Shown: positions 40,513-43,258 of the stretch, piece by piece
How positions within the stretch are numbered: position 1 is the first letter of the stretch
Layout of the letters: the number at the start of each line of letters is the position of its first letter
Source of the DNA: Caldilineaceae bacterium SB0664_bin_27
GTDB taxonomy: Bacteria; Chloroflexota; Anaerolineae; Caldilineales; Caldilineaceae
Length of the DNA: 43,326 nt
Assembly: GCA_009838625.1 (NCBI GenBank)
Contig: VXRG01000150.1
Location: 1-43,326 of the forward strand
Reading direction: 5' to 3'
Notes under the pieces: model-generated
The model's input: the letters and a program-made list of their open reading frames with translations, nothing else
What the model was told of the DNA's origin: nothing
Databases searched by the model: none
Program-made: the position numbers and the translations under genes

Positions 40513-41940
40513 TCACTGCCGCCAGGTTCCGGCGGCGGTTGGGTGGTCGTACGGCTGGTCGGCCACGCGCGCCTGCAGGCGGTGCAGCTCTTCGGTTAGT
40601 TCCTCAACAACGTCGGCATAAGCGGGTTCATCGTATACGTTGTTCAGTTCATAGGGGTCGGCATCGAGGTCGAACAGCTCCCACTCCGGCTCCTTGGACT
40701 CATCGATGACGCCAGGCTGATCCAGACCGTCGGCATAGTAGTAGATCAGCTTGTAACGCATTGTGCGAACACCGTAATGGGCGTAGACGTGGTGGTGTGC
40801 CAGGTGCATCCAATAGCGGTAGTACATCGACGTCTGCCAGCCCTGCGGCGCTTCTCCCGCAAGTAGAGGACAGAAGCTGGTCCCCTGGAAATGGTCCGGG
40901 ATTTTCAGGCCGGCGTATTCGAGCAGGGTAGGCGTGAAGTCGACGTTGAGCACCATCTGGTCGTTGACCGCCCCCGCGGCCACGGCACGCGGATAGCGGA
41001 TGATGAGCGGCATCCGCAGCGACTCCTCGTACATGAACCGCTTGTCATACCAGCCGTGGTCGCCCAGGAAAAAGCCCTGGTCGGACGTGTAGACCACGAT
41101 GGTGTTCTCCGCCAGCCCTTCCTCTTCCAGGTAGTCGAGCAGCCTACCCACGTTGTCATCGATGGAAGCTACGCAGCTCAGGTAGTCCTTGATGTAGCGC
41201 TGGTACTTCCACTTCTTTTCCTCCTCCGGTGTCAGGCCTTCAGGTGTGGGCTGTTTGAGATCGGTCAGCGTCATGTCGCGGTCGATGCGCATCTCGGCGG
41301 CGGCAGCCGCGGCGGCGCGGTTGCTGTAGTCGTCGTTGAAGGTCTCCGGGTAGGGGATCTCTTCGTCTTCATACATCAGCGCATGCTTCTCGTCCGGCTC
41401 CCAGGCGCGATGCGGCGCTTTGTGGTGGCACATGAGCATGAACGGCCGCTCCGGATCGCGCGCCCGGAGCCAGTCCAGCGAGAAATCGGTGATCAGGTCG
41501 GTGACGTAGCCGGGAAAGACTTTCCGCTCGCCCATCTCGATCATTTCGGGGTCGTGGTAAAGGCCCTGGCCCGGGAGTACGTTCCAATAGTCAAATCCGG
41601 TCGGATCGTTAACACCGCCGTGGCCCAAGTGCCATTTTCCGACGATAGCGGTCTGGTATCCCGCTGCCTGCAGCAATTTCGGCATAGTAACCTGCCGGCC
41701 GTCTAGGGTCGAGGCAAGCGTTGTCACGCCATTGATGTGGTTGTAGGTGCCGGTAAGGATGACGGCGCGGCTTGGCGTGCAGATCGAGTTAGTGCAGAAG
41801 CAGTTGTTGAAGCGCATGCCCTCGTCGGCGATGCGGTCGAGATGGGGGGTTTGGTTGATCCGGCTGCCGTAACAGCTCATGGCGTGTGAGGCGTGGTCGT
41901 CCGACATGACAAAGAGAATATTTGGACGCGAGTCGGGCAT
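40513..41940 (-). CDS. Type I sulfatase with canonical CTPSR motif
   Basis: The 475-residue S1-family sulfatase carries C54-T-P-S-R58 (NSICTPSRAVILTG), whose Cys is matured to formylglycine. Metal residues are D14/D15 (FVMSDDH) and the later YTSDQGFFLGDHGWYDKR block; GKWHLGHGG gives the conserved Lys/His. No signal peptide is present at the ATG 41940, which has AAGGA 8 nt upstream and fits the family start; the frame extends to 42075 without homology. An intracellular location is therefore expected unless the protein is exported by another route. It needs a formylglycine-generating enzyme, not in this window. The natural sulfate ester cannot be assigned. Confidence 0.9.
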   Translation of the reverse strand: MPDSRPNILFVMSDDHASHAMSCYGSRINQTPHLDRIADEGMRFNNCFCTNSICTPSRAVILTGTYNHINGVTTLASTLDGRQVTMPKLLQAAGYQTAIVGKWHLGHGGVNDPTGFDYWNVLPGQGLYHDPEMIEMGERKVFPGYVTDLITDFSLDWLRARDPERPFMLMCHHKAPHRAWEPDEKHALMYEDEEIPYPETFNDDYSNRAAAAAAAEMRIDRDMTLTDLKQPTPEGLTPEEEKKWKYQRYIKDYLSCVASIDDNVGRLLDYLEEEGLAENTIVVYTSDQGFFLGDHGWYDKRFMYEESLRMPLIIRYPRAVAAGAVNDQMVLNVDFTPTLLEYAGLKIPDHFQGTSFCPLLAGEAPQGWQTSMYYRYWMHLAHHHVYAHYGVRTMRYKLIYYYADGLDQPGVIDESKEPEWELFDLDADPYELNNVYDEPAYADVVEELTEELHRLQARVADQPYDHPTAAGTWRQ

Positions 41941-42203
41941 ATCAAGTCCTTTTGGAATCTCGTTTATGTTTTGACGTGTGGTCTGAGGAGCTGCTGTTTC
42001 AATCCGTTCACTGAGTTTGACGGGATAAGGGGGGACAGGCCCGGCCATGCTATCAGACAACAAATAAGTGGTCAAGCAGTAAGTGGAAGAGTGCAGTCCA
42101 GATTTAGGGCGGGAACAAAGGCGAAGCGCGAGGAACGGGGACTGCTGGCGCCTCTGCAGGAGATCGGATTGCGGGCTGGCCGCGGTGTTTTCGTTGGTTG
42201 AAT

Positions 42204-42751
42204 CATATGAAAGTTCGTCACTATTGGGATGCGTTCATATGTTTATTTTGGCTTGCGGGGACGGGCGGGGATGCGCGGACTTTGCCGATTTTGTACAGCT
42301 TTTGCGGGGGACTCCGGCCCATCATTTCCGTGGCTGACGGACGGTCTCTCGGAGGTGCGGCGGAGAGCGCGAAAGGGACCGCGAAGTCGTTGCATTTTCC
42401 CAAAAAGTGATGCATTACTGGATATTGGGGTCCTGACCAGAGAGAAAAAGGGCGAAAAACGGTGCGAAAGCAGTGCATCACTAGTGATGCATCACTTTCG
42501 CAAAAAATTGGCCCAAAAGCGGCGGCGATAGAGGCGTCGCGGGAGCGTGTTTTCGGGCTGATTCTGGCCGCAAAATCGGCGCGGAAATGTGGCTGTTCGC
42601 GGTTGGTGGTCTGTCCAGGGCGTACAGGTTTTGTACAAGTTTGCAGCACGGAGCAGAAAGGGAACGCCCCAAGCCTGGTTGCCTGCCGATGTATATGAAA
42701 CTCGTCCAATTTCGGAGAGTGCATCCCAATGTTTGTGCGAACTTTCATATA
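42204..42751. mobile_element. Non-coding element with hairpin-forming terminal inverted repeats (MITE-like)
   Basis: The left end (42205-42232) and the right end (42721-42750, reverse strand) share ATATGAAAGTTCG, a variable 6-8 nt and TTGGGATGC, so 22 positions match exactly in the same order. Each end also folds on itself: CATATGAA (42204-42211) with TTCATATG (42234-42241), and TATATGAAA (42692-42700) with TTTCATATA (42743-42751). A 38-bp palindrome lies at the midpoint. No transposase is encoded and no clear target duplication is seen. The middle arms are not symmetrical. It may be a MITE, a recombination site or a large structured DNA/RNA element. Confidence 0.6.
42464..42501. repeat. 38-bp near-perfect palindrome
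   Basis: GCGAAAG at 42464 and CTTTCGC ending at 42501 bound an inverted repeat with 16 of 19 positions matching. The inner 18 bp (TGCATCACTAGTGATGCA, 42474-42491) is perfect. TGATGCA also occurs at 42409-42415. It sits at the exact centre of the 42204-42751 element. Confidence 0.7.
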
Positions 42752-42981
42752 TCTCCGGCAGCGCAGGCGCCGCCTCAAACCACTGCGGTTCCGCCCTTCT
42801 TCGACCCTCTTGCTAACTGCGGCAATGCTGGCAGACCGGATAAGCTGCCATTGCCCTGCGAAAACGGTTGCATCCCGAATTCTCTACGGTAATCACACAA
42901 GAAATGGTGGATCCAGCCCATGCAACAGTTCGGCCCCACATGATAGAAAAAAATAAAATATCGTACCTCCCCCCTTAAACG

Positions 42982-43007
42982 AGGACAAAACAGGACAAAA
43001 CAGGACA
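42982..43007. repeat. 10-bp tandem repeat next to AT-rich patch
   Basis: Two full copies of AGGACAAAAC followed by AGGACA. An A/T-only-like stretch (AAAAAAATAAAATAT) lies about 25 nt to the left. The pattern is iteron-like, but too short to call an origin. Confidence 0.5.
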
Positions 43008-43213
43008 TCACCTTCAATTCCTTCACCCTTGAGCCGTCGAACTGAACGGATCGTTGATCTCTGTCAGCAAAGCAGTTTGCTTCCGAATACGGCCTGTCCG
43101 CGCAACGCCCCGCTGTCTCGCCGCGCCTATCCTCATTCAAGTGCCGCAGTCACTAATCACTAGGCGCTGGCCCCCAACCCCTGCCGCGCCCAAATCCGGG
43201 AAGCACCCGGCTG

Positions 43214-43258
43214 GAACTGCAGTGGTCAGAACTGCAGTGGTCAGAACGGCAGAAGTCA
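43214..43258. repeat. 15-bp tandem repeat, three copies
   Basis: GAACTGCAGTGGTCA occurs twice in tandem, followed by a third copy with changes (GAACGGCAGAAGTCA). GGTCAG-type words continue in degenerate form to the window end. The function is unknown. Confidence 0.6.

Follow-up and report, generated by a model that had tools for sequence, protein, structure and literature searches.

Near the right end of the window (the whole 43,326-nt stretch of DNA that was analysed) lies a repeated element of 1,120 bp, at positions 42089-43208. To its left is a host sulfatase gene (40513-41940, minus strand; PF00884, 203 bits), which is outside the element. Between the two, a consensus scan found a promoter sequence, TTGACC-N17-TAGCAT, on the minus strand at 42047-42075; it points away from the element and toward the sulfatase gene, which lies downstream of it. 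A Pfam search of the open reading frames inside the element, including two large ones, gave no match, and copies of the element differ from one another by insertions or deletions of 1, 10 and 11 nt. Because of these two results we recognise no gene in the element, in agreement with a preliminary description made from the sequence of the window.

The limits of the element were determined from copies aligned together with their flanks. Homology among copies reaches left to about position 42089 and right to 43208, and conserved 12-bp termini are located at these limits; the A+B junction described below and an empty site in a related genome support the same extent. The left terminus, GAGTGCAGTCCA (42089-42100, plus strand), corresponds to the family consensus GGGTGCAGTCCA. 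The right terminus (43197-43208, minus strand) reads CGGGAAGCACCC on the plus strand and corresponds to the family consensus TGGGATGCACCC; copy L013 carries TGGGATGCACCC as its end at the place aligned with it. Across the family, the conserved termini are GGGTGCAGTCCA or GGGTGCATCCCA, plus inverted copies of each. Both termini of the window copy contain substitutions; they have decayed from the family termini, which are GGGTGCA(GT/TC)CCA together with the inverted copies. With substituted termini and a left target-site copy that appears to be short by 2 nt, the window copy is old.

The element is composite: module A spans 42089-42716, and module B spans 42717-43208. Module A of the window copy is without its usual right end, and module B comes next. 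An identical A+B junction is present in copies L013 and L004; therefore, the composite itself is a repeated unit.

The preliminary description had placed the element at 42204-42751, between two ends in inverted order, with a palindrome at the midpoint. The inverted match is real: when 42204-42234 and 42720-42751 are aligned with gaps, 26 of the 31 columns are identical, with a local score of 21, compared to a mean of 10.3 (sd 1.9) and a maximum of 22 in 500 shuffles. However, these are not the ends of the element, since homology runs beyond both of them to the true conserved termini at 42089 and 43208, and 42204-42751 was ruled out as the whole element. Both are instead ends of internal modules, which gives the apparent three-part symmetry a different meaning. 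The left one (42204-42241, plus strand) is a module-B-type end in reverse orientation within module A, while the right one (42717-42752, plus strand) is the left end of module B, and the same sequence opens other copies in genomes G001, G003, G005 and G006. The central palindrome was also confirmed, with 17 of 20 pairs at 42463-42502. It is imperfect in most copies, and its place at the midpoint is a coincidence of the boundaries that had been chosen.

A single copy with unconserved ends, the outcome that the preliminary description had set against its own proposal, is not what was found. At least 40 places in this genome are related to the window region with 71-93% identity, many of them at contig ends. 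The pattern GGGTGCANYCCA revealed 61 exact termini in this genome, versus none for a reversed control pattern. A search of 16 congeneric genomes found exact GGGTGCANYCCA termini in every one of them, with between 5 and 112 per genome, and the family is found in 17 of 17 genomes of the genus, this one and 16 others. Intact copies bounded by termini are 101 to 1,458 bp long. Among the 61 genomes compared, module A is confined to this genome and its closest relative; other family members have termini in common with the window element and a different interior. Intervals of 7.7-7.9 kb bounded by terminal inverted repeats in G013 (L172, L173) were considered as a large autonomous transposon and rejected, since they contain ordinary host genes.

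Target duplications were sought at 58 termini-bounded stretches of 101-1,458 bp. Flanking 8-mers agree at 7 or more of 8 bases in 14 of these 58 intact copies (expectation 0.3; maximum 3 over 2,000 shuffles), and flanking 9-mers agree at 8 or more of 9 bases in five (0.1 expected). As read from these flanks, many copies have 8-bp target duplications and some have 9-bp ones. At the window element, the right copy of the duplication is GGCTGGAA (43209-43216) and the left copy is GTGGAA (42083-42088), which, by comparison with the empty site of G002, has probably lost 2 nt. The G002 locus (L215) is 90% identical to the window up to the junction over 584 bp of left flank, the element is absent from it, and its sequence is GTCAAGCAGTAAGGCTTGAACGCC. 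The window junctions read GTCAAGCAGTAAG(--)TGGAA, the element, and then GGCTGGAAC. The window duplication would thus be 8 bp long, GGCTGGAA, with two bases missing from the left copy. The right junction is less secure, because only 118 bp separate the element from the contig end and the G002 match stops after about 9 bp. The empty site in G002 is therefore shown by the left flank and by only about 9 bp of right flank; past GGCTTGAACGCC, the sequence to the right of the window element would be expected to join a G002-like flank.

Inverted repeats and a palindrome would also be consistent with a replication or recombination site (an origin, a resolution site or an attachment site) used by the chromosome, which the preliminary description had offered as one of three guesses. 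Copies dispersed over at least 40 places, target duplications and a nearest relative with an empty site are instead marks of a transposable element, and we consider the chance that the locus is such a chromosomal site to be negligible; this guess is not needed. Dispersed gene-less copies, conserved terminal inverted repeats and target duplications are those of a MITE family, and this guess, further supported by the empty site of the nearest relative, was the correct one.

A 1,450-bp copy from G014 (L192, positions 1432-2881) has the same 12-bp termini and surrounds a transposase. Against the NCBIfam ISKra4 model NF033572 this transposase scores 246 bits (cut-off 205), versus 98 bits against the ISLre2 model, below the cut-off of 200. 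ISLre2 was considered as the family and rejected: a Pfam UPF0236 search was borderline only, and NCBIfam assigns the transposase to ISKra4. Candidate catalytic residues, assigned by eye, are D140, D216 and E329, with a D-E spacing of 113 residues, and a DWWH sequence, also located by eye, lies 21 residues after the second aspartate (D2). In the ISKra4 family, the D2-E insert is 99-138 residues and the C/D(2)H motif is 11-19 residues after D2 (PMC3942029); the DWWH position falls slightly beyond the latter range. Two further full-length copies, L195 and L198, are 1,452 and 1,458 bp long, and transposase homologues are present in 15 of 17 genus genomes; the homologue of this genome is, as assembled, partial only (contig C3). 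The transposase frame of L192, the one full-length copy examined in detail, is split at a T6C5 run (2435-2580, G014), while a homologue from G007 has T5C5 and reads through there. The split-frame copy may be dead or may use (programmed) frameshifting. Two groups of identical ends in this genome sit 41-55 bp from contig ends, and the two ends of L192 match these two groups. Such groups at contig breaks are what collapsed recent copies would leave.

Outside the termini of family members, an outward -35-like box starts at a distance of 15-16 bp and is followed by a -10-like box. Outward promoters at 14-17 bp with a score of at least 8 of 12 were found at 75 of 156 distinct ends, compared to 1-7 at control distances; with a score of at least 9 of 12, there were 59 ends versus 0-2. 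With one promoter per element, to one side of it, about half of the ends would be expected to show one. The distances peak at 15-16 bp upstream of the -35 box and, as judged from these junctions, insertion is targeted to this position relative to an outward sigma70-type promoter. The window element is at present 13 bp from the -35 box of the sulfatase promoter; prior to the loss of 2 nt, the distance was presumably 15 bp. This promoter is kept upstream of the orthologous sulfatase gene in most of the genus. In G006 it bears a 102-bp family member with an exact TGCGAAAG duplication, and other family members are found at the sulfatase promoter in G001, G005 and G015.

Random insertion, with survival only upstream of promoters since insertions in genes or between a promoter and its gene are harmful, could produce a related pattern. 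Insertions in genes are selected against in compact bacterial genomes, and most copies of the family are indeed intergenic. However, survival would spread the distances broadly, while the observed peak at 15-16 bp is 2 bp wide. Moreover, the same spacing has been published for the ISKra4 transposase family (PMC3942029). We therefore regard random insertion as highly improbable. The TnGBS/ISLre2 elements insert 15-17 bp upstream of -35, and ISKra4 members have near-symmetric termini, promoters on either side and 8- or 9-bp repeats (Guerillot et al. 2014, PMC3942029).

With high confidence, 42089-43208 is assigned to the ISKra4 family of Mutator-superfamily DDE transposons as a non-autonomous, MITE-like element, presumably mobilised in trans and inserted upstream of promoters. 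The family assignment, termini, duplications, targeting, empty site and full-length copies are read from sequence; from them we infer that the present copies were mobilised by the transposase of the full-length relatives, and in what manner promoters are found. The transposase of the 1.45-kb relatives would act in trans on the common 12-bp termini, bind them, and excise or copy the element. The element would then be joined to DNA at a sigma70-type promoter, roughly 15 bp upstream of the -35 box, with an 8- or 9-bp target duplication. Insertion in either orientation would be possible because the termini are nearly symmetric. The promoter may be recognised as DNA sequence or as bound polymerase.

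A conserved, strand-biased interior fold is left unexplained by the MITE reading. Folding, as the preliminary description had suggested, revealed that the plus strand folds better than shuffles (z -5.3). For the module A consensus (copies L002-L054), z was -6.5 on the plus strand versus -3.8 on the minus strand. Compensatory changes among subfamilies were found in an 11-bp stem with a 5′ arm at 42406-42416 and a 3′ arm at 42486-42496 (both plus strand): three pairs are changed on both sides, and those pairs are unbroken in 22 module A sequences. Between the arms lies an invariant CTGACCAGAGAG core. An Rfam search of the element returned nothing at the gathering threshold, and the sole sub-threshold match, to a human lncRNA model at E 0.39, was taken as chance.

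The strand bias of the consensus fold, the unbroken stem and the invariant core are all consistent with a structured non-coding RNA (or a single-stranded DNA structure) as the functional content of the element, in which case the repeat family would exist because the structure is maintained. We consider this unlikely, although a structured RNA, the third guess of the preliminary description, may still be carried as passenger content. Module A is restricted to two of the 61 genomes, other family members combine the same termini with a different interior, and Rfam holds no match. The covariation of the stem is suggestive only, since copies from the same genome share ancestry and as few as two subfamily events may account for the changes; repeated protein-binding sites that change in concert would give the same picture. 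There is likewise only a slim chance that module A carries a conserved plus-strand RNA, or a multi-site protein-binding array, which acts on adjacent promoters, so that the family would disperse a regulatory RNA or operator to promoters.

Being a non-autonomous ISKra4-type element, the window feature is a genuine, abundant mobile element; it belongs to a known kind and is not a new kind of system. The repeat family resembles the ISKra4 family (p-MULT 4 of the prokaryotic Mutator-like DDE transposons; PMC3942029) in transposase family, in 8- or 9-bp duplications, in near-symmetric termini and in inserting upstream of sigma70/sigmaA promoters, which lie on either side. Unlike the members of the ISKra4 family, the window element is without a transposase, composite and old, and is related to them via its termini and target rule. 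The target rule of 15-17 bp upstream of -35 is also that of TnGBS and ISLre2 (p-MULT 3; PMC3942029), but the transposase scores below the ISLre2 model (98 bits against a cut-off of 200), and TnGBS is conjugative and has one insertion orientation. In common with MITEs in general, the family is short, gene-less and high in copy number, with inverted termini and target duplications; it differs from them in being addressed to sites upstream of promoters, and also in the window copy, which at 1,120 bp is larger and has a composite structure. Literature searches with few subscription journals among their sources returned no account of such ISKra4 MITEs. Earlier descriptions of promoter-addressed insertion of the ISKra4 type drew on a restricted number of insertion sequences. 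Across the genus, each genome has between 5 and about 110 exact termini; the set also comprises non-autonomous copies and many junctions at base resolution, and the several insertions at one sulfatase promoter add to it. This is a natural data set useful for studying the way in which a transposase reads promoters and upstream regions are reshaped.

Several other arrangements were observed among the copies. Very short copies of about 101-105 bp with intact termini form a class that includes L224 (2084-2185, G006), L208, L019, L035, L050 and others; two of these (L224 and L208) have an exact 8-bp duplication, and several others adjoin module A right ends. Pairs of elements stand back to back, only 9-10 bp apart, in L089 (G000, contig C109, 44-76), L179 (G016), L191 (G010) and L173 (G013), as though one element had entered at its neighbour's target duplication or the pair had come from a circular form. 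One intergenic region, in which promoter-like sites face outward on either side, is represented by L107/L013 (G000, contigs C169/C128), L021 (G002, contig C30) and L119 (G012); the same composite occupies it in both G000 and G002, and another member of the family does so in G012. Just to the right of the window element, at 43214-43258, lie three tandem 15-bp units of the type GAACTGCAGTGGTCA, and short CTGACTACTAACTACTGAC-type repeats resembling these units are found inside or beside many copies in the genus.
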